From a virus: a DNA stretch of 25,756 bases. Shown here piece by piece: positions 8,001 through 25,756 of this stretch. Each line of letters opens with the position of its first letter. Position 1 is the stretch's first letter. The translations under genes were made by a program, and so were the position numbers. The stretch spans positions 1 through 25,756 of IMG/VR virus record IMGVR_UViG_3300008952_000270; one strand, 5' to 3'. The notes under the pieces were generated by a model. That model saw only the letters and a list, made by a program, of their open reading frames with translations, made no database searches and was not told the origin of the DNA.

Positions 8001-11000
8001 GATGATGTTGACGAAATGCCCGCCAACCCTTCTCTTTGTGCCACAGAAGAAGACCTGCGGAATTTTTGTGATCTCCGCGCGCGACTTCTTGATGGGCGAT
8101 CTTCGCGAGAGCAGAGCGATCTAATGTGTGAACAAGCGAATGACGATATACTGCAGGCATTACGAGACGCAGCGAATGCCATGGATGATCCCATGGGGAA
8201 TGCCTTAAGCGATCCTATGGTTTCAGATCCTGGCTGTGATAATGGCTTGTTGCCTTTTGAGCCAGAAGAATTGGTAACTGCCACCGCTATCGCACTAAGC
8301 GGAGAATCGGACAATATCTCCGCGGCCTTTTCGGAGGATATGATGTCCAGTGATTCTGATGCGCCTGGCTTTCTTAACATGGTCTTAAGTGACACAATGG
8401 GTTCCGCCCTTTCGCTGCACCACACATTAGCCGAGAACAGGAGCAATTATGTAAACTTTTATATCGATGGCTTCTTCGATGATGACGATCAGTATGGACA
8501 GTTTCCCGCTACCGTTGCCCCCTGGTTGATAACTCAGCTTAAGAAGATACCCTCGGTTGCTATTTTTGATACTAATAATGAGATTGGAGAAGACAAGGTG
8601 GTTACTAAAACTTATGCTAGCCTAGGTCTTTCTCTGTTCGGAGGAGTCCAGACTGTAGATCTTCCTGATTTTGGGTATAATACAACAGTAGGTATTGACG
8701 TTGAAAATGAAGAAATAACATTTACACGTTTGGCCCGCAAAGCGCAGCCTGACGTTTTATTGCCATTTGAGGATAATAACTTTGGAATGTCCGAACATGT
8801 TGGTGTTAATCCGGCCTATGGATTTACTATAGCCGCCTTTTTTGGAGAGATTGAAGAAAAAACTGAAAATGATTCAACCATTCCAAGAAATATAGAGGGA
8901 GATAATGTAAGAGTGAGAATAATTGATTATAACAATCCCTACGCACTGCAGATTCCTCCGGAGGTAAGTTCCATGGGCAAGATCGGTGCCTCCCAATGGC
9001 TGTTAACTCAAGCATCGGCAGATATAGCTGCCAGCTTGGCAGACGGCTCGGCTTTATCAACGGCGGAATCCTCAACCAATATTGTCGACTACGATTTTGC
9101 CGCATCCCGAGCTTATGAATTCCTTTCAGTCGAAAATACGCTTGATGAGTTTGACTTATCTTCATATCCCCAATGGGCCCTCTCTTTTGAGAGTCCAACT
9201 TCCTATTCCCCTCCTTTAACAATGTTTATGGAGATAGCCCAGATGGCCGGCTTAAGCTTAACAGGTTTCCGCGATAGATTAAAGGGTATTTATGATACTG
9301 TTCAGCAGAATATCTATAATAACATAGCGAATACAATCGCCAGCAACACCGCCGCCTTTACTTATGGTGCCACTTACGATCCTCTTAACGAGGAAATGTT
9401 ATCTTATGTTGTGAAATCTGAACAAACCGACTCAGATGCCGGCACTAACTATTATGATGCAAAGATTAATGGTGAAAAATTGACCGAAGAAAATATGATT
9501 CTGGGAGTAAGCCATGATCAATTTATGAATGGTTCTGAGGCCCGAGTTCTCTACTTGGACCCCGCTCAATATGGCGGAACTTATTTAAAGCCTCCTCTTT
9601 ATATTAAGCCGTTAAAGGTGCAGGGATGGATAGGGCTTTTAGACGTGCTATATCCTATGGGCCCCGGCTGCGGCTCGGGAAGTAATGATGCAATAAACTT
9701 TGAAGATATTATCAAGGAGGCTTCTGAACAATATCGAAATCTCCCCGATGATGAACGATTGTCAGTCGATGAGTGTTCCTTTGAAGTACCCTATAATAAG
9801 CTCCTCACACGACTTGGAACTGTGCAGGCGCAGTCTTGTATTCAGTCTGCTTGTCGGCTATTTGCTGCAGTGCATTTAATAAAAGCCATGGCAACAATTA
9901 CCAAGTTTAAGCCCGATTTTGATAAAATGTATAGCCCCTTATACGCTCAGTTTATTGTGGAAGATATGGAAGAAGTTCTTACTACCCCTACGAGAAATTC
10001 TTTAATTTTTAGAAGTTCCACTAAAGATAATGAATTCTGGTATAAATTTTTAGAATTAACTGTACAGACCTACGGCCGCCTAGTGGACGAAGGCAAGATT
10101 ATAGATCCTCCGTCGCACGTCTTGAACGTTTTAGAAAGATTAAATGAGAAACAGGCCGCCTACAGATATCCCACAGTAAAACAATTTCGTTCTTTACGCC
10201 GCGGCGGAGATCCGCTCGCTAAAAGTGTGACGACAATTGGTCAATACAGAGAAGCAAAGAAAATCGAATTTCTTCACTCCACCTCGGAGGACGCGAAGAT
10301 TGTGGTAGCCGAGATGATTAAAAAAGAATTAAATATTGTAGGAGAGAATATTACCAAAAACTTATCCTCCTTGGATCTTGAGCCGGATTATAATGATGCT
10401 GCTTCTTACTTTTTAACTGAATTATGCCAAAGTAATTTAGAAGCAGCCTTAAACAAGCCGCTTAAAGAAGAGGTAAAAAGTCTACCAACAGAGCCAGGAA
10501 ACAGCTATTACACTCACGGAAATGAGTTTATTATTAGTGAAGGTGACTATGACACCGATTTATACGATGAAAATTATGTAGGCTATTATCATATACATGA
10601 GGGGATTAACGGAATTGAATATATGGTCGGAGAATATCATACGACCGAGGATCATCCGATATTAAAGCCTGTGGCAGGAGAATTGGTAATTCCCATTGGT
10701 GATTTAATTGATTATGAGGGCATGGAAGACTACTCCACCACTCCGTCAGAGTCGCAGCCATTTATCTTAGAAAAATATATCTCCATAAACGGAACCAAGC
10801 ACTCTACATCGGAGGCGATGGAAATTATTAAGAGCAATCCGAGCACCTCCAATATTTCCGATATTTACCCCGGAACCCTAGAAATAATGTACCGCTCTTC
10901 CCTTTTAGATGTTGTTAGTGCTAAAACCTCTGAGGGTCTAGAAGGCGCACTCCCATCTGAAATGTGGGACGAGGCCATCGGTCTCAGTGGAGAATTGGGG

Positions 11001-11825
11001 GTTAGATATGGAATCCAACTATCTTTATTGATTGATGAGAGTAGCGCTCTCGGCGATGTCGGAACTAAAAGCGAAGCAGTAAAGATTGAATTATTGAGTG
11101 TTGAGATGGATGTATTAGATAAAACAATCGGTGAAATAATTCCCTTTGAAGGAGATAGCTATCAGCTGTTATGCATGATAAATAAATTAAAAAAGGACCC
11201 AAAATTCAAGTTAATAACAGATTACGTCTTTCCAGTTAAAAAGCATATTTCTTTGATGGCTATTTATAATAATTTGGCATTCGTTCCATCGATAGGACAG
11301 ATTACGATCAATCCTTTTATCGAAATAGCTCCTTCTGATACTTTTGTAATGCCAGAGGGTGATAATACACCCGGGGTTTCAGTGGCGGTTGATAATAATT
11401 ATGAAGTTACCTATTCCACCAATGACGCGTGGTCTTCTTTATTATACCGTGTTTTAAATACGCCCGCAGTCCGTGCTGCTAAATTCGATAACTGGGAAGT
11501 AGAAATATTAGGAAGAACTAGAGATGTAATTAAAGAGTCTTTGGAGCGCGCCTACAATTCGGCCGACGAAGATTTTAGCACAATGTTGAATAATGCCTTC
11601 GCCCCAGGCCGGAAATTAGGCAGAAGAAACAATCGTTCAAGCCGCCGATCATCGGATGCTAATATGAACAGGCGCGGCCTTTCGGTATCCGCTATTGCTG
11701 CGCTAAAGAACAAATTAAAGCCCGACGCAGCCACAGCCGCAAGCGATATACTATCCAGAACACAGAGAAAACAAACAATAAATAATCCGTTTGATGCTGA
11801 AGGTTCTTTGTGCAAGAAAGGTTAA
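5082..11825 (+). CDS. Giant baseplate/tail structural protein (2,247 residues), function unassigned
   Basis: One uninterrupted frame with GAGGA 6 bases before the ATG. Order of visible regions: an N-terminal four-cysteine block (Cys24, Cys36, Cys39, Cys65, with CPGC and a following PNTNYIAPDW); an acidic linker at about 159-200; a helical region with two hydrophobic stretches at about 523-543 (LPIIAAAALAAMGVEAYG) and 787-818; a long mixed region; a His-containing block at 1826-1860 (YYHIHEG, MVGEYH, DHPIL) that I have seen in other aquatic phage structural proteins; and a basic Arg/Ser/Asn tail from about 2172. Its place immediately before gp25 and gp6 suggests a baseplate wedge or initiator role (T4 gp7 is the largest wedge protein). 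A tape-measure role is an alternative because of length, but the protein is not uniformly helical. I do not recognise a named family for the whole chain. Confidence 0.8.
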   Translation: MAESKFLKYQDGFRASSDNLHDSCEETEVSQATSSCPGCIPNTNYIAPDWKSLDRTRPWFNERTCTYYITMDTTEVKTIPYSGSSTEENEDFISSLYAEYTSAAADNMLIGINKMSDIGTRAQLEPHLKGEKYYLDANPSSFLKLLYSIDFDTMESLGIPAVDSETEDEQADIDNEEAASDESVEDLAQSSHSVTFEDNDFMNGLKRLQDALLLYNKQYKRLQALDSQTFIYEKDKSVFPLMQVALNITKIRDAVATFMENKGYIFPAQPALFSGKTIRGGQANKKITKLTLSFKGDYRLNTIEVAFAGCPGETVTYRGKRLRRLKKTRALKSTSAMAYIAAYHDMMPDLEARKPMSFIDFLIKHTYPIIELSAGWPRKDPNLIIDGFEFPIRCSALGTFLSNQNITLGQDLMDQEFSLRDSLEHTFERTTNRRGLQAWQEQQAELGTIFSPTQIDRDYIKGLAMTQSSLRINVDDQTYSVCGQDFDLGFIDDLKEFLDRLKEDGLKEMLLETIRSLMKGIDLKTALPIIAAAALAAMGVEAYGRLYERMPGHMRNKIDQIVKRKIAEYNSHIHALAQEHGYRAEYYGTEIVEAMAEEDATTTHGFVDIGYINSLVADDTNGLEFFRPWELMRELKEQGVAMAKGSAATPNLNPQKLKNGITLNASQKKVRTLAKKYTSSKEQEGAIEKAKDSAAIMAFFIEATPDAFAGDSIYDLLELLDGVPGARLLGAFLRAADFPDTPILKGGFLEWMNDRTASPMFRGQRNLRIPYTHNPAMIRAKLMDFTSFLFELARLAVQKAIMLAIAKLIQVACQAINKGPKDAIDTLKGLKNCKEGFKDSFSKIIEDGIVRYAEQPLQDAQDVLQQDQTLACTTLEMFQKFGGGAPALANPDTVFSFIEDLSCSLTRKEMMSAFLGDTSENTNQLVEALVDNQYPNLSDTFNNVGSPGNFFKAMGDTFPPEFRNKLQDFVDRLDDVDEMPANPSLCATEEDLRNFCDLRARLLDGRSSREQSDLMCEQANDDILQALRDAANAMDDPMGNALSDPMVSDPGCDNGLLPFEPEELVTATAIALSGESDNISAAFSEDMMSSDSDAPGFLNMVLSDTMGSALSLHHTLAENRSNYVNFYIDGFFDDDDQYGQFPATVAPWLITQLKKIPSVAIFDTNNEIGEDKVVTKTYASLGLSLFGGVQTVDLPDFGYNTTVGIDVENEEITFTRLARKAQPDVLLPFEDNNFGMSEHVGVNPAYGFTIAAFFGEIEEKTENDSTIPRNIEGDNVRVRIIDYNNPYALQIPPEVSSMGKIGASQWLLTQASADIAASLADGSALSTAESSTNIVDYDFAASRAYEFLSVENTLDEFDLSSYPQWALSFESPTSYSPPLTMFMEIAQMAGLSLTGFRDRLKGIYDTVQQNIYNNIANTIASNTAAFTYGATYDPLNEEMLSYVVKSEQTDSDAGTNYYDAKINGEKLTEENMILGVSHDQFMNGSEARVLYLDPAQYGGTYLKPPLYIKPLKVQGWIGLLDVLYPMGPGCGSGSNDAINFEDIIKEASEQYRNLPDDERLSVDECSFEVPYNKLLTRLGTVQAQSCIQSACRLFAAVHLIKAMATITKFKPDFDKMYSPLYAQFIVEDMEEVLTTPTRNSLIFRSSTKDNEFWYKFLELTVQTYGRLVDEGKIIDPPSHVLNVLERLNEKQAAYRYPTVKQFRSLRRGGDPLAKSVTTIGQYREAKKIEFLHSTSEDAKIVVAEMIKKELNIVGENITKNLSSLDLEPDYNDAASYFLTELCQSNLEAALNKPLKEEVKSLPTEPGNSYYTHGNEFIISEGDYDTDLYDENYVGYYHIHEGINGIEYMVGEYHTTEDHPILKPVAGELVIPIGDLIDYEGMEDYSTTPSESQPFILEKYISINGTKHSTSEAMEIIKSNPSTSNISDIYPGTLEIMYRSSLLDVVSAKTSEGLEGALPSEMWDEAIGLSGELGVRYGIQLSLLIDESSALGDVGTKSEAVKIELLSVEMDVLDKTIGEIIPFEGDSYQLLCMINKLKKDPKFKLITDYVFPVKKHISLMAIYNNLAFVPSIGQITINPFIEIAPSDTFVMPEGDNTPGVSVAVDNNYEVTYSTNDAWSSLLYRVLNTPAVRAAKFDNWEVEILGRTRDVIKESLERAYNSADEDFSTMLNNAFAPGRKLGRRNNRSSRRSSDANMNRRGLSVSAIAALKNKLKPDAATAASDILSRTQRKQTINNPFDAEGSLCKKG

Positions 11826-11846: not shown

Positions 11847-11866
11847 AGAAGAGGATCTATGTAATG
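11847..11866 (+). promoter_or_regulatory. Ribosome site and start-stop-start arrangement at gp25
   Basis: AGAAGAGGA (11847-11855) is followed by ATGTAATG. The first ATG (11859) is followed at once by TAA (11862-11864), whose last A begins the ATG of gp25 at 11864. Spacing favours the second ATG (8 bases from GAGGA) over the first (3 bases), so 11864 is taken as the true start. Confidence 0.5.
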
Positions 11867-12229
11867 AAAAAATTAGGCGTTAAACTACCACTCACAAGAG
11901 ATACATCCGATGGATTTACCATGCTGCACAACATAGCGCAGATGTATCGTCAAAACTTAAAGATGCTAATTTTGACCAATCCAGGCGAACGCGTAATGGA
12001 GCCAAATTTTGGAGTAGGGATGAATCGATTCTTGTTTGAATCTTATGGAAGCGCCGTAAGAACTCAGATAGAAGAAAAAATACAGTCGCAAGTAAGCATT
12101 TATATACCAAATATTCAGATCCTATCAATGGATTTCGGAGAAAGCCAGGATGCGGGGATGCTCACTATAAAGATTAAGTATAACATTACCAATTTAGGAA
12201 TGGCAGATTCTCTTGCCATTACTATTTAA
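11864..12229 (+). CDS. 25: Baseplate wedge protein gp25
   Basis: A 121-residue protein of the gp25/W/XkdS family, the small wedge component that links the baseplate to the first sheath ring in contractile tails and in related injection machines. The core block at residues 37-59, with TNPGERVMEPNFGVGMNRFLFE, is the family signature; GERVMEP corresponds to the conserved surface loop. The remainder shows the expected alternating strand-helix pattern ending in strands (ILSMDFGE, LTIKIKYNI). Length fits the family (T4 gp25 is 132 residues). It precedes gp6 by 14 bases, and the two proteins are direct partners in the T4 wedge core. T4 keeps gp25 in a different gene cluster from gp6, so adjacency here is a compact arrangement closer to that of P2-like phages. 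Confidence 0.9.
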   Translation: MKKLGVKLPLTRDTSDGFTMLHNIAQMYRQNLKMLILTNPGERVMEPNFGVGMNRFLFESYGSAVRTQIEEKIQSQVSIYIPNIQILSMDFGESQDAGMLTIKIKYNITNLGMADSLAITI

Positions 12230-12243
12230 AATAGGGGATTTTT

Positions 12244-14040
12244 ATGGCCGATAATGATAAAAAAATCATTCCTATAGATTATACTCACAGAGAGTTTCAG
12301 TCTATACGAGAAGATTTGATGCAAATAGCACAGCGCTATTATCCAGACAACTTTCGTGATTTTAGCGAGGCATCTTTTGGTGCGTTAATGCTCGACGCTG
12401 TTGCCTATGTGGGAGATCAACTTAACTTTTATTTAGATTATAATATAAATGAGTGCTTTTTAGATACTGCTTATGGTGCTGGAAATATTATGCGCCACGG
12501 CCGCGCCCTCGGATATAAACAAACCGGCGCTAGCTCAGTATATGGCGAGGCTGCAATCTATATAATGGTTCCAGCACAAGCATCTGCATTGGGCCCCGAT
12601 CCCTTATATATCCCTATTATGAGAAAGGGTTCTCGATTTGCTAGTTTGAATGGAATGAACTTTATTTTAACTGAGGATGTAGATTTTAATAATCCTTCAA
12701 ACCCTGTTGTGGTCGGGCGCGTTGATGACACAACTGGCGCCCCCTCCCATTACGCAATTAAGGCATATGGAAATGTGGTCTCTGGAAAGTTTGCCACGCG
12801 CCGCATAAAGGTGGGTGGATATCAAAGATATCAACGCGCTAAAGTCTCCAGCCAATCGATCTCAGAAATAATCTCAGTTTATGATGAACAAGGCAATCAG
12901 TATTATGAAGTGGATTATCTTGCACAAGATATGGTTTATCAAGAAATTCCTAATGATAACTATAAGGAGGATAATGTTCCCTCAGTTATAAAGCCGCTGC
13001 TTGTTAGTCGTAAATTTATAGTAGAGCGAAGCACTCAAGGAACTTTTCTACAGTTTGGAAGCGGCGATTCTTCTGAATCAGGAGTAGTAGCCAACCCCCA
13101 ACAAGTGGCGATGAACTTATTTGGAAAAAGCTATGTAACTGATACAACTTTCGATCCTTCGCGCCTATCGAAAGATAGAAGTTATGGAATCGTCCCAACT
13201 AATACAACGTTGATAGTGAGCTATCGCATAGATAATCGTTTTAATAACAATCTTTCATCTGGCGCCCTGACCTCGGTAGTAGATGCCGCCCTGTCATTTA
13301 AAGATCGCGAACAGCTCACGGTTTCAAAAATAGTAGATATTAATGCATCTGTTGAAATAACTAACGAACGACCCATCGTTGGGGTAAATACGCCAACTAA
13401 TACTGCCGAACTCAAGTCGAGAATTATTGATACTTTTCCCACTCAGAATCGTGCTGTAACTCAGGCTGATTATGAGAACATTGCTTTAAGGATGCCCGGC
13501 AAGTTTGGTTCTGTCAAGCGTGTAAGTGTTCAGAAAGACCCAGATTCGCTAAAAAGAAATTTAAATATGTATGTTATTTCGGAAAACAATTTTGGTAAAC
13601 TGACCACAACTAATGCTGTTATAAAACAAAATTTAAAAACATGGCTAAATCAATATAGAATGATCAATGACACAATCGACATTTTAGATCCTTACATAAT
13701 CAACTTAGGAATTGAATTTGTGATAAAAGTATTGCCCACTGCAGACCGAAATGCCGCAATAGCTCAAGCTGTCAGCCGAATAAATCGTAAATTTTCTCGC
13801 GATTATTTTATTGGAGAACATTTTTATATTAGTGACATATATAGCGAACTTAAGCGCTCAAGAGATGTATTAGATGTGGTTAAAGTAAGGTTGATAAGCA
13901 AGTCGGGTGGTCAATATTCATATATAAACTTTTCAATTAATGAAAATCTTTCTCCGGAAGGTGATTATTTGATCTGTCCCAAAAATGCTATTTTTGAGAT
14001 TAAGTATCCTCCCACAGACATCAAAGGTAAGACTAGGTAA
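12244..14040 (+). CDS. 6: Baseplate wedge protein gp6 (baseplate J-like)
   Basis: A 598-residue protein matching T4 gp6 and the baseplate J superfamily, which dimerises to form the inner wedge ring of contractile-tail baseplates. The N-terminus carries the characteristic block with IDYTHREFQSIREDLM, FGALMLDAVAYVGDQLNFYL and a following Asn/Ala-rich helix (residues about 10-95). The C-terminal half has the family block NRAVTQADYENIALRMPGKF (about residues 401-420), followed by the GSVKRVSV strand. The last 30 residues, ENLSPEGDYLICPKNAIFEI with PPTDIKG, match the gp6 C-terminal arm of T4-like phages. Its length is slightly below the 660 residues of T4 gp6. GGGGA lies 5 bases before the ATG. 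Its TAA overlaps the next ATG by one base. Confidence 0.93.
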   Translation: MADNDKKIIPIDYTHREFQSIREDLMQIAQRYYPDNFRDFSEASFGALMLDAVAYVGDQLNFYLDYNINECFLDTAYGAGNIMRHGRALGYKQTGASSVYGEAAIYIMVPAQASALGPDPLYIPIMRKGSRFASLNGMNFILTEDVDFNNPSNPVVVGRVDDTTGAPSHYAIKAYGNVVSGKFATRRIKVGGYQRYQRAKVSSQSISEIISVYDEQGNQYYEVDYLAQDMVYQEIPNDNYKEDNVPSVIKPLLVSRKFIVERSTQGTFLQFGSGDSSESGVVANPQQVAMNLFGKSYVTDTTFDPSRLSKDRSYGIVPTNTTLIVSYRIDNRFNNNLSSGALTSVVDAALSFKDREQLTVSKIVDINASVEITNERPIVGVNTPTNTAELKSRIIDTFPTQNRAVTQADYENIALRMPGKFGSVKRVSVQKDPDSLKRNLNMYVISENNFGKLTTTNAVIKQNLKTWLNQYRMINDTIDILDPYIINLGIEFVIKVLPTADRNAAIAQAVSRINRKFSRDYFIGEHFYISDIYSELKRSRDVLDVVKVRLISKSGGQYSYINFSINENLSPEGDYLICPKNAIFEIKYPPTDIKGKTR

Positions 14041-15572
14041 TGCTCAGAAGATATACTGCTAGCGCTGACACCACAATTGTCAATGCTTGGCCAATGGACG
14101 AGTTGACCACTCGCGCCACTGGATCAAACACGGGACGCGCCGATGTCATGGAAGTGTTCTCTATTTACGGCCGCTTTACTACGAGTTCACAGGAATTATC
14201 GCGCGCCCTCATCAAATTTCCTGTCGATCAGATTTCCTCAGAGCGAACCAGCGGAACTGTGCCCGCTAGCGGAAGCGTGAGTTTTTATTTGCGCCTATAC
14301 AACGCGCCTATCTCACGAACCAATCCTCGCGATTTTCGTATGGTTATTCAGCCGATATTTACCGCTTGGCAAGAGGGCGATGGCCTCGATATCTATAGTT
14401 ACGCGGATATAACCAATGGAAATGTCGGCGCCAACTGGATGAGTGCCTCCGCAACGGTTGGATGGAATTCGGTTTCGGGAGGTGGCGACTGGCTATCAAG
14501 TTCGGCTGATTATAGATATGAGTCTTATTTTGACCGCGGTACTGAGAACATTGAAGTAGATATTACTCCGCTTGTAGAGAGATGGATTAAAGGTGCCGGC
14601 GGAGGCGGAATTGCAAATTATGGCCTTGGAGTTAAATTATCAGCCAGCTATGAAGCATATGCAACTGGCGGCGTAGGGGATGATCAATCTGTTCAGAAAA
14701 ACGTTGGAGGCGCTACGAAGTCTTACTATACTAAGCGCTTCTTTTCAAGAGGCTCTCAATATTGGTTTATGCGCCCCGCGATCGAAGCTCGTTGGGATGA
14801 TGTCGAGCGCGATGACCGCGGAAACTTCTTTTTCAGTAGTTCTCGTGCCCCGGCCGCGGATAATTTAAATACAATTTATTTTTACAACTATCTTCGCGGC
14901 AGGTTGGTGAATCTGCCTGATGTTGATGATGGCACATTACTAATAAGTTTATACTCTGGTTCTACCTATGATACGCATCCTGACACCTCTAAATTGACGC
15001 TCTATGATGGGCAGACAAGTATGACTGGAGGCTGGATTGCTACTGGAGTTTACACCTGTTCTATAGGAATCGTTTCCTCATCTACTAAAACATTGTATGA
15101 TGTGTGGCATTCTGGGGGCACTCAATACTACACGGGATCAATACTGCCTCAGCTATTTGGAGGCGGAAATACCAATGCTAGTCCCAGCTATATCCTTAAC
15201 ATTAGCAATTTAAAAGATAAATATTTTTCCAACGAGACTGCTCGAATGACTTTATATGCGAGAGAAAAATATTGGAGTCCCACTGTCTATACGAGAGTGA
15301 CCACGCCAGCGCCCGTAAGCTCTATTGTGAGCGCATCTTATCGTGTTTATCGAGTTTTAGATGGGTATAGTGCCATTGATTACGGAACAGGTTCTGATTT
15401 TCATACAGGTCTTTCATATGACATCTCTGGAAATTATTTTGATTTAGATATGAGGCTATTGCAGCCCGGCTATGCTTATGGGCTGAAATTTGCATTTTAT
15501 GACGCGCGTCTAAAGTCATGGCAAGAGCAAGATCAGGTATTTAAGTTTAGAGTAGAAGATTATGAGTATTAA
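14040..15572 (+). CDS. Beta-rich virion protein with DNRLRE/CBM96-like N-terminal domain
   Basis: A 510-residue protein coupled to gp6 through TAATG. Residues 1-205 show the DNRLRE/CBM96-like pattern: an opening ADTTI strand, RALIKFPVDQI, a FYLRLYN strand, an FTAWQEGDG block, then IEVDITPLVERWI and NYGLGVKLS. In bacteria this fold is found in extracellular, often carbohydrate-binding or stalk-forming proteins. Residues about 280-390 form a strand-rich middle region (LVNLPDVDDGTLLISLYSG, then GVYTCSIGIV). The C-terminal 120 residues contain REKYWSPTVY, YRVYRVLDGY and LSYDISGNYFDLDMRLLQPG with a closing QVFKFRVED, blocks I recognise from uncharacterised aquatic phage structural proteins. It has no signal peptide. 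It lies between gp6 and the giant LamG protein, so a baseplate-periphery or fibre-connector role is inferred. The exact role is unknown. Confidence 0.75.
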   Translation: MLRRYTASADTTIVNAWPMDELTTRATGSNTGRADVMEVFSIYGRFTTSSQELSRALIKFPVDQISSERTSGTVPASGSVSFYLRLYNAPISRTNPRDFRMVIQPIFTAWQEGDGLDIYSYADITNGNVGANWMSASATVGWNSVSGGGDWLSSSADYRYESYFDRGTENIEVDITPLVERWIKGAGGGGIANYGLGVKLSASYEAYATGGVGDDQSVQKNVGGATKSYYTKRFFSRGSQYWFMRPAIEARWDDVERDDRGNFFFSSSRAPAADNLNTIYFYNYLRGRLVNLPDVDDGTLLISLYSGSTYDTHPDTSKLTLYDGQTSMTGGWIATGVYTCSIGIVSSSTKTLYDVWHSGGTQYYTGSILPQLFGGGNTNASPSYILNISNLKDKYFSNETARMTLYAREKYWSPTVYTRVTTPAPVSSIVSASYRVYRVLDGYSAIDYGTGSDFHTGLSYDISGNYFDLDMRLLQPGYAYGLKFAFYDARLKSWQEQDQVFKFRVEDYEY

Positions 15573-18500
15573 AAAGCTTTTTGAAGCAGGCAATAAAAAT
15601 AAAAACTATAGCGATTTTAAAACCGAAAAAGAAGAATTCGAATCAGTTGAATCGCGAAAAAATGCTGAAGAACTTATTTTAAAACAAAATACGTTTGTCC
15701 CAGACATAAATTATGCAATTCCTGCTGAGTTTGTAAAATATGGCTCCGCTTTCTTATATTATAAAGGTGCCCTTGATCGAATTTCTGATTACTATCCTTA
15801 TGATGGTTCCGCCGCCGAGAAGAACAAATTTTATAATAATCTTCTGGAAGTTGAAAAATATGTTTTCGACAGTCGATATCCGCGCACAAACGGGCATATT
15901 AAATTTAGCTCGGCAGGGTGGGGCTCAAGAACCTCTACCGCGGATGGGTTTGGATTACCGGCAACAACGGAATATATTACAATAAAAGGAGGTCCTCTAA
16001 CCTCTTCGGGCACCAGCATGATCGAGCGTGGCCCCAATCCCTATAATGATGTTTTCAATTATTCGAATGTTTACGATGAGAACATCTATGAGACAGCAGG
16101 CCTTCCTGACGATTATGGCCTAGGAACGCGCCTATCAAATTTAAGATCTAACTTTGATACTGGAGTTACTGTAGAGTTTTGGTTGAAGACTGGCTCGATA
16201 AACTACTCAGCCACAACACAGAAACAAGTTGTCTTTGACATGTGGAATAACTATTCCGCTGCTACTACCAATTACGGCCGTCTAACCATTAGCTTACATA
16301 CTGCATCCGCCGCATCGCCATCCACATCCGCTGGTAATGCGCCCTTTATGTATACTATTCATTCTGGCTCTTCGGGAGGAACCCGGGTCGTAAGAACAAT
16401 TGGAACCGGTTCCGCCGCAACTGCTTCGTTTGGATCGTGGAGTCATTACGCTATGACATTCGCCAATTCTGGTAGTAATTTTGTAGCCAAGCTGTATGTT
16501 AATGGTACATTAAACTCTACTAATGTGCATACCTCCACGACTATGGCGGAGATAAATTCAAAGAATATGATGGCCCGCCTGGGCGCCCTCATTACGACTC
16601 CTTCTGGTTCTACCGCCGCTGCTGGCGCTGGTAAACTTAGCGGCTCCTTAGATGAATTTAGGTTCTGGAAAGAGAGACGCAGCGCAAAACAGATTGCAGA
16701 AAATTATTTTGTGCCCGTAGAAGGAGGAGCAAATAGTGATATTTCTAATACAACGTTAGGTGTTTATTATAAGTTTAATGAAGGTATTACTGGTATCACG
16801 GCAGAAGATGAAGTAGTATTAGATTATGCCGGCCGAATCAGCAATGGACTTTGGACTGGCTATACAGCCACAGCGCGCAGCACAACATCAGCCATTGTAG
16901 AGGCCGGCGCCGCATCAACAGAATATAAAGATCCGATTATTCGCACCACCAACCCGCTCTTCCAGACCTTATCGTCTAGTTTATGTGCGAGTGGTTCCTA
17001 TTACGATTTAAACAATGCTTCACAATTTAAGAATTATGCGCCTTCTTGGGTGATCGAAGAACAAGATAGCTCCGAACATCCAGATTTAGATTTAATGTCA
17101 CATATATGCGGTGCATATTTTGACAAAATATATCAATTAATCAGAGCATTGCCGGATTTCAAGGGACAGCAGTATACATCCGCTTCGTCCACTCCACTAC
17201 CATTTGCTCAACATTTGCCCCAATCTTTAGGTCTTTATACCACCGATCTGTTTATTGACGGCACCATTATGGAGCGTTTGTTAAACAGGACCAACGATTC
17301 GTTATTTCAGAATGACCTACAAGATACTAAAAATCTAATTTACTTAAATCTTTATAACAATTTGGCCAATATCTTTAAGGCTAAAGGAACAGAAAAAGCT
17401 GTTAGAAATGTCCTTCGCTGCTTTTATCTAGATGACTCTCTTTTTCAATTCAGAACCTATGGAAAAAATGTCACATATAAGCTTGAAAATAATCTTCAAG
17501 AACATATTGCACAAGATACTCGTGTCTCTTTTAACTCAGTAAACAATGCTCGCGGTATCGTTTATCAAAAAGCTGATAGCTCAAATGCAAATAGTCGAGG
17601 ACATATTTCTGGAAGCAACAGCGGATCTGCTACAGACTATCAAAGTGCTTATGGTGCTACGATGGAGGCAGACGTCACATTTCCTGTAATAAATACAACT
17701 TACGACAAGCTTCATCGTAATTTTGTTTCGGCATCCCTTTTTGGCCTACATACTGTGAATTCAGCATCAGCCAATTCCATGGATGGTTCTGATACCACTT
17801 TAGTTACCAACAACTACGCCAACTTTCAGGTGCACGCAATTAGAGATGAGCCATTTTCTCGGAATGTATATTTTCGCCTTTCTTCGTCTCACTATCCTTA
17901 CCCGCTGCCTTATTTGACAAGTAGCACTTTCTTTTCCGTATACAATAATGAAAGGTGGAATCTTTCAGTCCGTATCAGGCCTCAGAAATATCCTCTTAGC
18001 ACTTTCGTGTCGGGAGCTAATGCTCCGACTTATGACGTAATTTTCCGCGGCGCAAGCACTCGGATCGGAGCGCTCGATCGACAATTCGAAGTATCTGGAA
18101 CAGTAAACTACACGGTAGGCTCTAATTTCCTAAAGGCCCCTAAGAGAATATATGTAGGCGCCCAGCGCACCAATCTGACGGGCGCCCTGGTTAATCTTTC
18201 AGATGTATATGTTTCCAATACAAAATATTGGAGCCAATATATTGATAATATTTCGCTAGATCAGCACGCGTATGATGCAGACAACAGAGGAGTCTCAGGC
18301 TCTTATAAAAATATATCCCCCATTGGAACCCTTAATGATAATTTTGATTTACTCAGACGGAACACGCTGGCTTTAGATTGGACATATTATAATGTAACGG
18401 CCTCAAACGCGACCGGAAACTTCACTGTGATGGATTTCAGTTCGGGCTCTTCCCTTATTCGAGACAACTATGGGTGGCTAGGAAATATTGTTGGATATCA

Positions 18501-21500
18501 GCACACTGGCTATGGCTATGGCTTTGCCACTTCATCGACCACCGTCTTAGACAATAATGAAATCAATATGTATAAGTTTGTAGATCCCGAAGCTGCAATT
18601 GATTCTTCGATGATCAGTATCCTTTCTGAGGATGATACACTCTATGATATTGTTGAAACTGTGCCGAGTTATGTGAATACATTTGAAAAAAGCATGTATG
18701 GAAATATTTCTGAAGAAATGCTTACGTTCTTGGCCGGTGTGGTTGATTTTAATAATATTATTGGCGAACCGGTAAATCGTTATCGTAGTCGATATAAAGC
18801 AATAGAAAAATTACGTGAAGCCTTCTTCCGACGCGTCACTGAAGTAACTCAAGTTGAAAAGTTTATAAACTATTATAAATGGTTTGATGACGCCCTGTCG
18901 ATTGTTATTGGCCAACTTATGCCAGCTTCAAGCGATTTTATTGAAGATACTTTAAACATAGTCGAATCACATGTGTTGGAGAGAAACAAATATGAGAGTA
19001 AGTTTCCCACTCTAGAAATGGCCGGCACTGATCCTGAAGCAGCTATCGGAGGAATGGCGTCTGCTCCTAGATGGGAGTTTGCTCATTTTCCGCCTTCCGG
19101 CTCCGATCCTTCCGAATGGGTTTCGCCCACAAGAGGTAATCCAGCATTTAATGTGTTTTATTGGAAGAACATGGCAGAGAGGTCTATACCTCCGATCGCA
19201 GTGAAGGGTAATGCCACTATTAATGCTCAGCGAGAAACCATCAGGAAAATAGTGTCCTCTCAACCGCATTTAAGTCGCAGTTTGCCAGTATTTGCAACCG
19301 TAGATGGCACCACTTATACGCGCAATACGTTTGCTAGTCGTAATTCACAAAGATTTTATTCGCTTAAAACCCAGCTTAGCGGAAGCCCTGCTTATGGAGG
19401 GATCCGCGGCGGCGTCAACTTCCCGCCCGGGAAGAAGATTGACTTCACCTATAATGCATTGCGCCCCTATGGGCCCGTTAATCATTCTGGCGGCGTGTTT
19501 GTGCCACAAAATGTATTGATGGCGTTTGCTGAAGATTTCACTGGCCTGCTGAACAATCGAGATCCTAAAGAGCCTAATAAAAAGATAAAGCGCAACGTTA
19601 AAGTGTTGCACGGCCGCAATTATGAGGATGGGCTAGGCTACCAGACCGTTAAGTCCTCAATGGCGTTTCCTTTTAACATTATCAGTTCCTCAGTTAAGAG
19701 CGGATACTTAAAAGAGGTTAGCGATAAAGTTACCGGCAATGTGGCGATTACCAACCTTCACAATGATGTTTATGGGCCTGATATGGAGATTCCACTTCAA
19801 GGACCGTTCACGAACTATGCAGTAGGAGGTCATCAGTCGCGACATATCGGGTTGAACTATAAGAGTGCCACCCGAGAGCTTGATAACTATCGCACACGCC
19901 CCGAAGCTTGGAAACTGCTTTTGGGAACATGCACAGATACAACAAGGATCATAGAAGATTCAGGCGCCATTGGTATGGTTGGTCCTGATTATCCATGGCC
20001 CGAAGCGAATGATGATGGAGCGCGCCCATATCCAATGACAGCTTCGCAGTTGGCAGTTTACTATCGAGGCCTTACAGCGAAACGCCCAGTAAATATTCGC
20101 AACATCCATCACACCACGGGCTCCCCCACTAAGCTTGGCAACTATAATGAGAATTATGAGGTTGTAAGCACTGTGGGCGCATACGCTAACCCGCGCGCTT
20201 TTATTGATAGCCAGCCAACGCTTCCTTCAAACGTATTTCAGTCTAATACTACGAGTTCAATGACTGCTAATACTTGGTTGGATTCTGTGACTCGCTTTGC
20301 TGGCACTAGATCACTCGGAAGAAAACTGTTTGTAGAGCCGTATTACATCGGCAATTACCTCAGAGGAAATGATCCGGTGCTTAACAACAGCAGTGCCGGC
20401 CGCAATAAGAGCGTTATAAGAAGTAGATTTAATTCTCCCGGCGGCCCTGAGACTCACACCCCCGCATATACTGATTTTCGTTCTGATTCTATCTCTGCCT
20501 ATAACTCTTGGAACAATAGAAACCTAAGTGTCATTAAGCCTTCGCAGGGCCCAAGCGGCTCTTGGGAGTCGTTCGATGGAAATCTCCAAACCGGCTCCAT
20601 TCGCGTTAACGATATCCTTAACAAGCCTTATGGTCTGCGTTCTCACTTGGCCCGCCACACGGCAAGATTTGGTCGAGATTCTCTATTCCAAACGGGTACA
20701 ATGTCCGGTCCTGGATACGCCACGCGCCTGCAAGCCCCTGGCGCAACTTACAATCAGCTTCCTGGCTTTCACAAAGTGCACCGTAATAATTTAGCACGGC
20801 TTATCAAACATGATCAAATTCAACAGATTACTGTTGGACCATTGAGCAATACTATTGCGGGCCACTATGTCGAAGGCGCTAATGGAGATAAGGGCCCCGC
20901 GTTAGTTCTCACTTCATCGACAGAAGGTTGGGATGAAGGAACTCAACTTTATCAAGCACTCACTAGTAGCGGATTCACATATTCTGGCTGGCATTATTTT
21001 GCTCCCGGATCGAGTGTTCGCAGATTCTTCAACATGAACAGAACTCAAGCCGGCGCCTTCCCTGGTCTCTCGATAGCTAAGGGCTATAGCTCTTCCCGTC
21101 ATCGGATTATAGTGCTGATGGCAACTGCTAATAGTGATGATAGTTCACGACAGCAAGCTGAATGGCAGGTGACAGGTAATGTTGGAGGAGATCTAACGTC
21201 TGAATCGTGGGTTCATGTGGCTGTGACCTGGACAGGTTCTAATGGCTCACTTACTGCAGCAGAGCCGCTGGTCTATATCAACGGCGTGTCTCATACGGTT
21301 ACAGAAGATACCGCACCCCTTGATTATTATCCTCAAAATTGGCGCGTTATTGAAGATTATAAAGACTTTAGCACTGTTAAGATTTTGGGCAATAACTTCG
21401 TTACTTTCGGCGGAAACCATAGCGATAAAACTTGGAGCTATTCAGGCTCAATAGATGAGGTTTCTATCTGGAAGCGCAAGCTTAATTCAGACGAAGTAAA

Positions 21501-24500
21501 TCAGCTTTATAACGGAGGCACTCCGTGTGATATAACAGGATCCAATGTATATACCCAAAGTTCTTCAGCGGGGCTTTGGGAATGGATCAGGATGGGTGAC
21601 GGAAAGAACGGCTCAAATGCTGTTGATCACACTAATCCGGGAACAAGTGGCACAAGCAACAGGATTACGGGCGAGATAAATAGTATGATTTTCATGCCAA
21701 TTACCCAGAAAACGTTTGGCCAGCAGCTTTCCATTACCGCAAGCTCGCCGGCGGCGACGGCTGGCTGCAGCGTGAAAATCATTGGCCAACGAACAGTTTC
21801 AACATATACTACTGGGGCAGTGTATGACAATTTTAACGTAAAACACCAGATTCCCAGATCATCCAAGCAATATACTTGGATCACGTCCTCAATTGCACCG
21901 GGAAGCAAGATTAAGGCATTTGGATACGCTCCAGCTGATTTTTACTACAGCTCTTCGTTACATGGCCAGCAGGAGTTTATAAACTTTTTATCTGCTAGTG
22001 ATGGGGGAAGCTATTTCCAGACCGCTATTGGTGCAACGAGAAACTATGGCATTGCGCAAGTCGCAGTTAATGCTGATAGCAATCTTGATCAATATTTAGC
22101 CGATAACTTAGTGGGGCTTAGTTACGTTTTTGCTGATCCTGTTGATACTTCCACAAATACGCTAGGTGTTGGTCAAAATATTAGTAACTATTTCAATACT
22201 GGCGCCCTAGGATATTTAGATCAGGTTGTGGCACACGGCAAAGCTATGGGCCTTAATGGGCTATTGCTTAAGCGAGGAAGCGGATATGGATTTAACTCTT
22301 GGAACCAGCTACGACAAGCATACAGCCCTATTCTAAGGCGACAAGCTGCCAATAATCAAGTGGTGGTAAATATGGGCTCGGCACCCAGCACCCCGACAGT
22401 TTTCGAAATGCCGCCAGTGTCAATGAGGGGCCGCACCGGCATTGTCAATTTTGATTTAGTTACTGACGAAAGTGTTACGCCGACATATGCCCTTGAGTGT
22501 GCGTTTACTAATGAGAAGATTTATTATAATTCTACCGCCATGAACGACATGATGGGAATTTCTTTGCTCAACTTTACTACTCCGTTTGAGCAGGCTATAG
22601 AAGTCGCACATGGAACAGATTACTCTACAAACTGGGTTGCATACTCTGAAAATATTTTTCCATCTCAACGCAATGAGTTTTTATCCCGCTCTACACAGCG
22701 CGTTGGTTATGATAATAAATTTTGGAGAACAACTTTAAATGATAGAATGACTGTAGGTGCGGCTTTAAGTAATAGTTGTGGAGTCTGGGATGATCCCGGC
22801 ACTGCTGGTAGTTCAAGAACTCTTAGTCAAAGTTGTTGGCCTCTTGATGCTCCTTATGGCTTCTTGACGCGCTCAAACGCCAACAATTGGAATACGGCAG
22901 AGGCGTTTTTATCCTTCCTTGCCGCCCCAGGTGTAGCAATGGGCAATTTAGCTGTTGCAGGTGGAGAATTACAAAATGGATATTCCAGTTATTTTGCTAA
23001 TTCCGTGTTCGGTGAAGCTATGGGTCCGACCTATCCGACTCAATTGTTGTATCGTCCCGCGGCTCTATATGCAAGAAAGCACCAGCTAACAACCCCCGCA
23101 TCCAATGTGTGTGCTTCGGGAATGCTGATTCCACAAACAGGCGCAATTAATCGTTCCATATTCTTGGCGAAAAATCAATGCAGCGGAACCTTTGCTGGTG
23201 AAGCGGTCTGGCAAACTGGCGAATTGGCCGGAATCGTTAGAAAAAGTGGACCACCCTCTTCTACCACATTATCAAAGGCTTCTCTTAATATAAATCTTTT
23301 TCAAAAATCCGCCAGTGCGCCATGGTATAATGGCTATTCTGACTATAATGCGGATTTAAAATTATTGGCTCGCGGATTTTCAATTGTTCCAGAGTTCAGA
23401 ATTAGTGAACATATCGACGATTATTTAGAAGCTGGCTTGATTGATAATGGAAAAACAGACTCTTTTGAGATTGCAGAAACTGGCATTAACAGCTCGACTG
23501 TAACAAACGGAACTGCTTCTTTCTATCTAGACTACTCTAATTCTGATTTCTTACAAGAATTCTTGCGAGTTAAACAAGAAACTTTGTTGAATGCTAAAGA
23601 GATTAAACTAGTTTGCAGCGCAGCATGCAAGTTTGTGCCATATAAGGGTTTTTATCCTGCAGATCGAACACTGCAATTGGTGGAGCAATTTAAGAAGGAC
23701 TACGCAGATACAATGAATGGTTCTGCTCTGCGCTCTGGATTCGCCGCTCCAAATCTTGAGAAGGCTGGCTCTTCTGATCTTTTTGCTGGCGTATGGGGCG
23801 GTTTCACCAAAATGGCCATGGCTCCATTATTCAACCCAGGTATACTCTACAATAGTATTAAATCTGGATTAGCAGTCGACTGGCCGCTCGTAACACGAGG
23901 CTCAAAATTTCAAAAAGTAGCCTTTGGGCAGACTGGCGAGTTTGATGGAGATAACGCACAAAACTGGGCTATTACATGTAGATCCGGATCATCCGGAGTG
24001 TATCCTCTTTATACTATCGGATCCGACCATACTAATCCTGATAGTTCATATAATCAAGAAATGCTTGGTTTCAATAGAACGTTTTTTGATATGAGAGTTC
24101 CTTTTGAAGGAGTTATAAATCCAGAAAACTATCTCGAAGGCATTAATTTGTTTGATATGGACGCTCATCCTTCCAGTTCTGTGGCTAGTGCCACTGCTTC
24201 TTACGCCGGCGCCCCAGGCGCCTCCTATTCTCGCATGATGCGAAATTTCTTGGGAGCTGTCCCGGAATTTTTCTTAAAAGATAATTCGTTTACAAAACTT
24301 TCTACCCCGGCTATGTTTGATACTCTGACATTCGACGGAAATGAAACTTATATGGCTCGGATAAAACTGTATCGATCTATGACTGGTTCCCGAAACTACA
24401 GCTATGAAAGTGCTTCCGTAAACTATCACTCCGACCTAACAAAGCTATTTACCCCTCTGGGTGCTTGTGGGGTGCAACAGGCAACCGCCGGCGGCGACGA

Positions 24501-25756
24501 TTCTGGGGTTCACTATATCACAGGCTCTTCCTATCCGCTGCCTCAAGATCCTAGAAACGCTCCCGATTATCACGAAAACTTTACGATGTATAGTCGCCCT
24601 ACCGCATTTGGCCCCCCAATGGCCGGCCTCGGCGGCGGCGCTTTATGTCTTTCGGGCGCCCTGTATACCACAAATACGATTTATGACAGCTTTAGCGGCC
24701 ATAATCCTGCATATACGCCCCCTTATTATGACGGTGAGGCGTGGTGTGATCTGATCTTTAGGCCCATAGGCGGCATTAATTATACTTTGGGCATGATCGC
24801 GAGAGAGACTACAGCATCTTATTTACGTTTTGACGCTGGTTATCAAAGCGGGAGCATGACAAGCCGTCAAGCAGCCGGTTCGTGGGCAGGTTGTGGCCCC
24901 CGCACTCCTCTCATCTTCACTCCCAATGCATTCCCTTACACGGCAACCAGTGTTCCGACACTTCCGCGGCGCCCCGCTATTGCTCCTTATAGCGGCGTCA
25001 ACATCAATAAAAATTCCATGCAATTAAGTGCCAGTATAAGGCTAAAAGGTATTGAAAGCGTGTCGTTTGCAGAACAAAATGTATTTGGACAAACGACTGC
25101 AACGCGCAACACCACAGAAGGTTATAAATGGATTATTCAGCCGTGGTTTGAGACTCCTATGTTAAACTTTAATGACACAGGAGTCCGACCTCTTACTAGT
25201 TCAGAACTATCACTGCCGACATTTGCGTCATGTTCGGTACCGCGCGGCATGTGGCATCAGTTTGGAATTATCGAGCCCGATCAGAATAAAGGAATATTCT
25301 TAGAGATTGGTGATATACCTAATAATTGGTTAACCTATAATCATCTTATTATAAATACAGGCAGCGTCTATAACGAATTTGATACTGACGGCTCTTATAC
25401 TATTCCATCTAAAGTAAAATCATTAAGTGATTTAGTTGGATTTAATCAGGGCACTAATAAGGCGCGCCTCGGTGGTCTCAAAGAAAATATCACCATTAAA
25501 GAGGCAATTGTCGCAGTTCCCTATGTAATTGAAACAACCACAGTCACATTGGGAGCCAAGGAGGCAACGTTCGAACGCAAGAAATTTATAACCATCCCTG
25601 AATATCGCTTCGAATCAGCGCTAGCGACGGCTTACGGCAGTGCTGCCGGCGATTCATTGTTGTCGGCTGGTGAATCTATACGCAGACAAATTGAGCTTAT
25701 GCAAAACTATATTATGCCCCCTGAGTTTGATTTTATTACTAATCGCGATTTAGATC
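15562..25756 (+). CDS. Giant LamG-domain baseplate/tail protein, 3' end beyond window (at least 3,398 codons)
   Basis: The ATG overlaps the upstream gene by 11 bases; translation from here has no stop to base 25756. Residues 1-115 are a charged helical head (NKNKNYSDFKTEKEEFESVE, then RISDYYPYDGS). Residues about 200-386 are a clear LamG/concanavalin-A-like sandwich (VTVEFWLKTG, WSHYAMTF, KLYVNGT, GSLDEFRFWKERRSAKQI). Residues about 496-625 hold a tail module with NLANIFKAKGTEKAVRNVLR. Residues about 694-905 look like a weaker LamG domain. Residues 1056-1152 contain PVNRYRSRYKAIEKLREAFF and IVESHVLERNKYESKFPTLE. A second clear LamG domain spans about 1880-1985 (SWVHVAVTW, VYINGV, GSIDEVSIWKRKLNSDEV). 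Residues 2691-2775 hold FVPYKGFYPADRTLQLVEQF and FNPGILYNSIKSGLAVDWP. I recognise several blocks from aquatic phage structural proteins. A host-contacting baseplate or fibre role is inferred. Confidence 0.85.
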   Translation, partial: MSIKKLFEAGNKNKNYSDFKTEKEEFESVESRKNAEELILKQNTFVPDINYAIPAEFVKYGSAFLYYKGALDRISDYYPYDGSAAEKNKFYNNLLEVEKYVFDSRYPRTNGHIKFSSAGWGSRTSTADGFGLPATTEYITIKGGPLTSSGTSMIERGPNPYNDVFNYSNVYDENIYETAGLPDDYGLGTRLSNLRSNFDTGVTVEFWLKTGSINYSATTQKQVVFDMWNNYSAATTNYGRLTISLHTASAASPSTSAGNAPFMYTIHSGSSGGTRVVRTIGTGSAATASFGSWSHYAMTFANSGSNFVAKLYVNGTLNSTNVHTSTTMAEINSKNMMARLGALITTPSGSTAAAGAGKLSGSLDEFRFWKERRSAKQIAENYFVPVEGGANSDISNTTLGVYYKFNEGITGITAEDEVVLDYAGRISNGLWTGYTATARSTTSAIVEAGAASTEYKDPIIRTTNPLFQTLSSSLCASGSYYDLNNASQFKNYAPSWVIEEQDSSEHPDLDLMSHICGAYFDKIYQLIRALPDFKGQQYTSASSTPLPFAQHLPQSLGLYTTDLFIDGTIMERLLNRTNDSLFQNDLQDTKNLIYLNLYNNLANIFKAKGTEKAVRNVLRCFYLDDSLFQFRTYGKNVTYKLENNLQEHIAQDTRVSFNSVNNARGIVYQKADSSNANSRGHISGSNSGSATDYQSAYGATMEADVTFPVINTTYDKLHRNFVSASLFGLHTVNSASANSMDGSDTTLVTNNYANFQVHAIRDEPFSRNVYFRLSSSHYPYPLPYLTSSTFFSVYNNERWNLSVRIRPQKYPLSTFVSGANAPTYDVIFRGASTRIGALDRQFEVSGTVNYTVGSNFLKAPKRIYVGAQRTNLTGALVNLSDVYVSNTKYWSQYIDNISLDQHAYDADNRGVSGSYKNISPIGTLNDNFDLLRRNTLALDWTYYNVTASNATGNFTVMDFSSGSSLIRDNYGWLGNIVGYQHTGYGYGFATSSTTVLDNNEINMYKFVDPEAAIDSSMISILSEDDTLYDIVETVPSYVNTFEKSMYGNISEEMLTFLAGVVDFNNIIGEPVNRYRSRYKAIEKLREAFFRRVTEVTQVEKFINYYKWFDDALSIVIGQLMPASSDFIEDTLNIVESHVLERNKYESKFPTLEMAGTDPEAAIGGMASAPRWEFAHFPPSGSDPSEWVSPTRGNPAFNVFYWKNMAERSIPPIAVKGNATINAQRETIRKIVSSQPHLSRSLPVFATVDGTTYTRNTFASRNSQRFYSLKTQLSGSPAYGGIRGGVNFPPGKKIDFTYNALRPYGPVNHSGGVFVPQNVLMAFAEDFTGLLNNRDPKEPNKKIKRNVKVLHGRNYEDGLGYQTVKSSMAFPFNIISSSVKSGYLKEVSDKVTGNVAITNLHNDVYGPDMEIPLQGPFTNYAVGGHQSRHIGLNYKSATRELDNYRTRPEAWKLLLGTCTDTTRIIEDSGAIGMVGPDYPWPEANDDGARPYPMTASQLAVYYRGLTAKRPVNIRNIHHTTGSPTKLGNYNENYEVVSTVGAYANPRAFIDSQPTLPSNVFQSNTTSSMTANTWLDSVTRFAGTRSLGRKLFVEPYYIGNYLRGNDPVLNNSSAGRNKSVIRSRFNSPGGPETHTPAYTDFRSDSISAYNSWNNRNLSVIKPSQGPSGSWESFDGNLQTGSIRVNDILNKPYGLRSHLARHTARFGRDSLFQTGTMSGPGYATRLQAPGATYNQLPGFHKVHRNNLARLIKHDQIQQITVGPLSNTIAGHYVEGANGDKGPALVLTSSTEGWDEGTQLYQALTSSGFTYSGWHYFAPGSSVRRFFNMNRTQAGAFPGLSIAKGYSSSRHRIIVLMATANSDDSSRQQAEWQVTGNVGGDLTSESWVHVAVTWTGSNGSLTAAEPLVYINGVSHTVTEDTAPLDYYPQNWRVIEDYKDFSTVKILGNNFVTFGGNHSDKTWSYSGSIDEVSIWKRKLNSDEVNQLYNGGTPCDITGSNVYTQSSSAGLWEWIRMGDGKNGSNAVDHTNPGTSGTSNRITGEINSMIFMPITQKTFGQQLSITASSPAATAGCSVKIIGQRTVSTYTTGAVYDNFNVKHQIPRSSKQYTWITSSIAPGSKIKAFGYAPADFYYSSSLHGQQEFINFLSASDGGSYFQTAIGATRNYGIAQVAVNADSNLDQYLADNLVGLSYVFADPVDTSTNTLGVGQNISNYFNTGALGYLDQVVAHGKAMGLNGLLLKRGSGYGFNSWNQLRQAYSPILRRQAANNQVVVNMGSAPSTPTVFEMPPVSMRGRTGIVNFDLVTDESVTPTYALECAFTNEKIYYNSTAMNDMMGISLLNFTTPFEQAIEVAHGTDYSTNWVAYSENIFPSQRNEFLSRSTQRVGYDNKFWRTTLNDRMTVGAALSNSCGVWDDPGTAGSSRTLSQSCWPLDAPYGFLTRSNANNWNTAEAFLSFLAAPGVAMGNLAVAGGELQNGYSSYFANSVFGEAMGPTYPTQLLYRPAALYARKHQLTTPASNVCASGMLIPQTGAINRSIFLAKNQCSGTFAGEAVWQTGELAGIVRKSGPPSSTTLSKASLNINLFQKSASAPWYNGYSDYNADLKLLARGFSIVPEFRISEHIDDYLEAGLIDNGKTDSFEIAETGINSSTVTNGTASFYLDYSNSDFLQEFLRVKQETLLNAKEIKLVCSAACKFVPYKGFYPADRTLQLVEQFKKDYADTMNGSALRSGFAAPNLEKAGSSDLFAGVWGGFTKMAMAPLFNPGILYNSIKSGLAVDWPLVTRGSKFQKVAFGQTGEFDGDNAQNWAITCRSGSSGVYPLYTIGSDHTNPDSSYNQEMLGFNRTFFDMRVPFEGVINPENYLEGINLFDMDAHPSSSVASATASYAGAPGASYSRMMRNFLGAVPEFFLKDNSFTKLSTPAMFDTLTFDGNETYMARIKLYRSMTGSRNYSYESASVNYHSDLTKLFTPLGACGVQQATAGGDDSGVHYITGSSYPLPQDPRNAPDYHENFTMYSRPTAFGPPMAGLGGGALCLSGALYTTNTIYDSFSGHNPAYTPPYYDGEAWCDLIFRPIGGINYTLGMIARETTASYLRFDAGYQSGSMTSRQAAGSWAGCGPRTPLIFTPNAFPYTATSVPTLPRRPAIAPYSGVNINKNSMQLSASIRLKGIESVSFAEQNVFGQTTATRNTTEGYKWIIQPWFETPMLNFNDTGVRPLTSSELSLPTFASCSVPRGMWHQFGIIEPDQNKGIFLEIGDIPNNWLTYNHLIINTGSVYNEFDTDGSYTIPSKVKSLSDLVGFNQGTNKARLGGLKENITIKEAIVAVPYVIETTTVTLGAKEATFERKKFITIPEYRFESALATAYGSAAGDSLLSAGESIRRQIELMQNYIMPPEFDFITNRDLD
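16159..16719 (+). other. LamG/concanavalin-A-like domain 1 in the giant protein
   Basis: This region (residues about 200-386) has the classic order of a laminin-G jelly-roll: an opening strand VTVEFWLKTG, a central SWSHYAMTF strand, a KLYVNGT strand, and the closing GSLDEFRFWKERRSAKQIAE with its helix turn. The next block, LGVYYKFNEG followed by DYAGRISNG, is also typical of tandem LamG-like segments. Such domains often bind glycans. The fold call is confident and the ligand is unknown. Confidence 0.8.
17047..17475 (+). other. Tail/baseplate module with KGT block in the giant protein
   Basis: Residues about 496-638 run WVIEEQDSSEHPDLDLMSHI, a helix containing FDKIYQLIRAL, then YLNLYNNLANIFKAKGTEKA and a final FRTYGKN. 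I recognise the pattern of a helical pair followed by an NNL-x-x-I-x-K-x-KGT block, and then an R-x-YG strand, from long tail or baseplate proteins of several phage groups, including phages of Bacteroidetes. It is probably a structural docking module. The recognition is from memory of sequence patterns, not a search. Confidence 0.5.
20920..21520 (+). other. LamG/concanavalin-A-like domain 2 in the giant protein
   Basis: Residues about 1787-1986 contain SWVHVAVTWTG, a strand ending VYINGVSH, and SGSIDEVSIWKRKLNSDEVN followed by QLYNGG, which is the standard LamG end with its helix. The domain is preceded at residues 1730-1751 by a HKVHRNN block that I have also seen next to LamG segments in aquatic phage proteins. 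Glycan binding is a reasonable inference but unproven. Confidence 0.8.

Follow-up and report, generated by a model that had tools for sequence, protein, structure and literature searches.

The question raised by this locus is whether an open reading frame that starts with an ATG at position 15562, runs through 3,398 sense codons with zero stops, and is still open at position 25,756 is a real gene and, if so, what kind of phage protein it encodes. The window, that is, the whole 25,756-bp stretch analyzed here, is the full IMG/VR record G000, so that its edge coincides with the contig edge and the gene is truncated there. A frame that reaches the end of a contig could, in principle, be an assembly artifact or a chance open frame, but we assign next to no probability to this explanation, given that independent metagenomes have yielded full-length colinear homologs on dozens of contigs. 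Arithmetic from the local base composition puts the chance of a stop-free run of this length on the order of 1e-85, and the translation aligns colinearly, from end to end, with complete genes on independent oceanic contigs, the relative L002 showing about 31-61% identity to the window protein in each 150-residue bin. In view of this colinearity, an assembly join or a hidden frameshift within 15562-25756 is, in practice, ruled out, as is chance, and the frame described in the first-pass annotation is reconfirmed. In the alignment, the complete relatives have 140-346 extra residues before the stop, beyond the end of the window, and the missing stop should accordingly lie about 140-350 codons further on; a search of IMG/VR for an exact match of the contig end that would extend the contig returned none.

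Table 1. Features of the giant gene and of the genes immediately upstream (residue numbers refer to the window protein)
Feature	Coordinates	Strand	Evidence and remarks
gp25 (GPW_gp25), baseplate wedge	11864..12229	+	PF04965, 4.6e-13
gp6/gpJ-type baseplate wedge protein	12244..14040	+	PHROG 6, 219; 29.5% identity, full length, to Mel-JY01 gene
510-aa protein between gp6 and giant	14040..15572	+	overlaps start of giant by 11 nt; Mel-JY01 homolog 8.6e-8
Giant gene in the gp7 slot	15562..25755	+	>=3,398 aa; open at contig end; colinear complete relatives
LamG-1 (core), residues 199-379	16156..16698	+	PF13385; present here in nearly all of 43 members
Putative gpI/gp7-type helical module with KGT motif, residues ~455-655, motif ~590-622	16924..17526	+	PF09684 subthreshold, profile-profile match, AF2 helices
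Second concanavalin-A-like beta-sandwich, Pfam-negative, residues ~629-1004	17446..18573	+	AF2, Foldseek
Strongly conserved helical module, residues 1010-1178, end of N-half	18589..19095	+	family alignment
Variable linker; stop and new start here in L006/L007 clade	19096..19458	+	split maps to residue 1179
C-half body, about 2,000-2,200 aa in family	19459..25755	+	family alignments; no relatives outside family
LamG-2 insert cassette at insertion hot spot; domain ~20902-21546	20809..21678	+	PF13385 6.6e-10, Pentaxin 3.3e-5

The genomic context speaks to function. The order gp25-gp6-(510 aa)-giant is that of a contractile-tail baseplate operon, with the three smaller genes immediately 5' of the giant (Table 1), and bears out the baseplate association originally proposed. 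The type of phage is known from relatives, the window itself being too short to show either a capsid or a sheath gene: in five near-complete relatives of 190-196 kb, the T4-type Gp23 capsid protein is above the cut-off in 5/5 (E < 1e-59), and the tail sheath, with E values of 1e-5 to 1e-8, is above it in 2/5. Judging from these genomes, the lineage that carries the giant gene is one of phages with a T4-type capsid and a contractile tail.

The gene belongs to a sizable family. A first scan, with residues ~447-846 as the query, yielded eight relatives; the complete giant gene encodes 3,790-3,791 aa in L002, L003, and L004, 3,164 aa in L005, and 3,248 aa in L008, and two adjacent genes take the place of one in L006 (1,219+2,189 aa) and L007 (1,240+2,177 aa). 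In a second scan, the helical module (residues 1010-1178) served as the query and recovered 293 relatives in IMG/VR, of which the 80 nearest to the query were read; together with the first-scan set, these 80 include 46 complete single-frame genes of 2,947-4,034 aa. The family is missed by PHROGs and NCBIfam, and Pfam detects its LamG domains only. We found no prior description of it in the literature searched (open-access PMC), and the family, its C-terminal half, and the site-hopping pattern of its LamG domains all appear to be undescribed. A likely role can now be given to a family of at least 293 IMG/VR members.

The N-terminal half combines lectin-like and helical modules. PF13385 (LamG) matches the whole protein with 63.7 bits against a cut-off of 27.6 bits, and LamG modules, as the first-pass annotation had them, are found both at residues 199-379 and, when the insert is scanned alone, at ~1799-1980. 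The beta-sandwich at residues ~629-1004 is modeled by AF2 with pLDDT mostly of 75-96 and, in Foldseek, matches lectins, alginate/ulvan lyases, and the evolved-Dit CBM of phage J-1. Between the two lies the helical region of residues ~455-655, with the motif NLYNNLxxIxKSKGTEKAIRNVxRCF; the KGT helical motif (residues ~590-680) recurs in the "baseplate wedge initiator" family that fills the gp7 slot in cyano- and pelagimyophages. When the profile of the window family was aligned with one built from eleven gp7-slot proteins, the KGT motif scored 38.4, compared with a maximum of 18.7 in 293 column shuffles and 19.0 for the reversed profile; no other segment of the giant protein exceeded 21.2. PF09684 (Tail_P2_I/gpI) gives a subthreshold match at 17377-17517; such matches lie inside the giant gene in four records (the window, two relatives of ~190 kb, and the 484-kb LR756508) and remain below the cut-off of 20.6 bits in every record, the best reaching 14.9 bits. 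The more direct searches were silent: there was no match of Pfam PF23786 (Baseplate_wedge) to the window or its relatives, although the same search also missed an annotated member of ACG-2014f, no match of PHROGs to the N-half, nothing in a single-sequence comparison with T4 gp7, and only chance matches when profiles of the gpI-like, helical, and C-terminal regions were searched against PDB sequences. In HTVC008M, Pfam Baseplate_wedge and PHROG 2885 both match the 1,016-aa product of the gene that follows gp6. We infer a gp7-type link of the giant gene, then, from about 70-100 aligned columns in one motif region, plus gene order.

The "helical docking modules" of the initial description are accordingly only partly substantiated: a gpI/gp7-type helical motif does adjoin LamG, but the helices are weakly modeled, the AF2 model of the N-module having a mean pLDDT of 68, with low values across several helices. 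With that motif next to LamG, scaffold and probable receptor-contact modules would be together in a single chain, in agreement with what had been suggested from the letters of the sequence. It seems probable, at roughly 0.7 in our estimate, that the giant frame is a gp7-slot baseplate wedge gene with inserted lectin-type cassettes, from an uncultivated marine phage. The several lectin-like domains and the variable inserts would also fit a giant tail fiber or adhesin, that is, a receptor-binding protein that merely happens to be encoded in the baseplate operon and is not part of the wedge. We consider this unlikely because the KGT module and the helical module that follows it are among the best-conserved regions of the protein, because the relatives from the first scan have one colinear giant gene after gp6 and a gene of 500-650 aa, and because a stand-alone version of the N-half occupies the same slot in the phages immuto and Mel-JY01.

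Giant genes in this slot are not without precedent. T4-like marine cyanophages have, directly downstream of gp25-gp6, genes of 3-7 k aa with the KGT helical motif, among them P-SSM4 gp7 (AAX46881, 7,312 aa), AIX36956 of ACG-2014f (4,225 aa), and Syn1_094 (3,274 aa); annotated coordinates put the occupants of the same slot at ~3,533 aa in S-MbCM7, ~3,495 in ACG-2014e, ~4,067 in Bellamy (gp111), ~3,884 in S-CAM9, and ~4,458 in MED4-213. P-SSM4 gp7 combines Baseplate_wedge and LamG domains in one protein, together with YHYH, so that this kind of gene, giant and mixing LamG with wedge modules, is already known. The statement that the frame greatly exceeds every T4 tail gene in size thus holds for T4 gp7 itself (1,032 aa) but not for T4-like phages in general, as P-SSM4 shows, and any uniqueness of size is contradicted by the 3.3-7.3 k-aa genes that cultured cyanophages have in the same slot. 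The differences are substantial: outside the KGT motif, the cyanophage giants show no significant sequence match to the window protein; the three that were scanned all have YHYH domains; in the window, the 510-aa gene separates gp6 from the giant; and the KGT module comes after the N-terminal LamG in the window but within the first ~250 residues in the cyanophage giants. The giant gene appears to be an undescribed relative of the giants known in this slot in cyanobacterial phages, and giant gp7-slot genes extend beyond cyanophages. The resemblance to P2 gpI and T4 gp7 consists of the order W(gp25)-J(gp6)-I(gp7) and the weak PF09684 match at the KGT motif, P2 gpI, at 176 aa, and T4 gp7 being far smaller. 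S-B05 and S-H68 were considered as sources of orthologs and discarded, since their matches span the LamG insert only.

Homologs of the N-half stand alone in the same slot in the cultured Flavobacterium phage immuto (immuto26A_162, 1,265 aa) and in Microcystis phage Mel-JY01 (WWT39511, 1,336 aa), and the uncultured phage LR756508 has a stand-alone N-half gene of 1,400 aa after a 636-aa and a 420-aa gene. The N-half profile matches the three with E values of 1e-14 to 2e-19, and the KGT and C-terminal helical modules are homologous. The C-half was not detected in these outgroup genomes, which join the tree on long branches, and the fusion step is, for that reason, deduced rather than directly traced. 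In the tree of the N-module, the split genes make up a single clade (100) that falls within the fused relatives, with L104 as its sister (99), followed by L107/L110/L111/L113 (98); by this placement, the split of the L006/L007 clade at residue ~1179 is a secondary fission. Most simply, the two halves would have been fused once, at the root of the marine lineage, and separated once, later on, at the linker. That one clade has the halves as two genes, separated at a variable linker, might alternatively suggest a polyprotein, whose cleavage near residue 1179 would release a wedge protein and another structural protein; we regard this as improbable, somewhat more so than a tail fiber, inasmuch as neither a protease nor a cleavage motif was identified and the fusion has been kept in most members across deep divergence.

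The C-half, of which the last 140 or more residues are absent from the window, has no match among annotated phage records; its model is poor (pLDDT 57) and yielded no Foldseek/PDB match. T4 gp6-gp10 and the tail proteins of HTVC008M were tried as relatives, with no match to any. A survey of pelagimyophages proposed that VrlC stands in for T4 gp7 (PMC7029224), and VrlC was also rejected as the identity of the C-half: its domain DUF4815 (PF16075), present in HTVC008M, phiM19, and ACG-2014f, was found neither in the window nor in any of the relatives searched.

The inserts tell a separate story. When 43 non-redundant members are aligned, the core amounts to about 3,016 columns, and optional stretches of 80-443 aa are inserted at some 15 sites. 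LamG-2 of the window is such an insert (residues ~1781-1995; PF13385 39.8 bits when scanned alone, cut-off 27.6), at a site where 13 of the 43 members have inserts of 146-323 aa. Across phages, LamG inserts occur at seven sites, near window residues 319, 673, 1432, 1485, 1717, 1749, and 2564, the first of these inside LamG-1, where L016, L024, L069, and L080 have a nested LamG. In the LamG tree, whose SH-aLRT support values come from a quick search and in which single joins are not to be pressed, the core LamG-1 domains form one clade (100) and a separate clade of inserts (96) covers five sites. By this topology, LamG-1 is the fixed, vertically inherited part; the inserts, in contrast to it, appear to move between sites and, being found at seven of them in relatives, act like cassettes that can change place on a conserved scaffold of ~3,000 columns. 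A second insert module of ~120 aa, Pfam-negative (..GDTIxLxxTDGT...TAxxIxxAIN...VTVTQ...GNTxIT..), is present at other sites; it occurs as tandem copies in L059 (insert after residue 246) and also in L043, L021, L008, L066, L024, and L011.

How might such a protein work? Under the favored reading, that of a wedge gene with lectin-type inserts, the N-half of ~1,180 aa, composed of the fixed LamG, the gpI/gp7-type KGT helices, the second lectin-like sandwich, and the conserved helical module, would most likely dock onto gp6 and gp25 within the wedge. It would be fused to a structural half of ~2,200 aa, and LamG domains and the ~120-aa module would have been inserted at permissive sites of the scaffold, probably facing outward and adding contacts to host surface glycans. 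Placement in the wedge, outward display, and binding of glycans or a receptor are thus all conjectural attributes of the giant protein. The insertion of carbohydrate-binding domains into baseplate proteins has an established precedent in evolved Dit (PMC6669499), as do promiscuous, movable Ig-like domains on phage structural proteins (PMC9022992), and the pelagimyophage survey found carbohydrate-binding domains, concanavalin A among them, in structural operons (PMC7029224). The Dit and Ig-like cases resemble ours in that binding or adhesive inserts sit in a virion scaffold in some relatives only (PMC6669499, PMC9022992); they differ in involving siphophage Dit or tube, fiber, and capsid proteins, and other domain families. 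LamG cassettes at varied places in one alignable scaffold amount to a natural experiment on how phages gain host-binding modules without breaking the baseplate. More tentatively, and with decidedly less confidence than in the wedge assignment, one could envisage that, in a large oceanic lineage, a gp7-type wedge protein was fused to a new structural protein of ~2,200 aa and the joint chain became a platform for lectin cassettes hopping between permissive sites, with host-surface binding altered through domain insertion in the baseplate, not through swaps of tail fibers. In such a scenario, the new structural protein perhaps replaced VrlC, the domain of which, DUF4815, was not found in genomes of the lineage.

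Several further observations concern the rest of the locus and the possible hosts. Another very long frame, of 2,247 aa, lies at 5082-11825(+), and relatives have a similarly long frame there, cut by the locus ends; its Pfam matches are insignificant, and there was no match in PHROGs, NCBIfam, or phage tblastn. A frame with the conserved helical module (1,559 aa, L118:6956-11635) is present in a 2.8-Mb MAG chromosome labeled WOR-3 (CP070664) and may represent a prophage or a binning or assembly error. Two short contigs (L116, L117) in a metagenome-assembled Maricaulis MAG hold pieces of the giant gene; these could be phage contigs binned with their host or by chance, and so provide a possible host lead. 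The 236-aa protein at 1586-2296(+), with a homolog at the Mel-JY01 locus (L090:3811-4581; E 4e-24) and a marginal Sigma70_r2 match, may be a phage sigma factor that serves late transcription. Finally, the 495-aa protein at 2583-4070(+), 5' of the wedge genes, has an Amidase_2 domain at its C-terminus and is possibly a tail-associated cell-wall enzyme.
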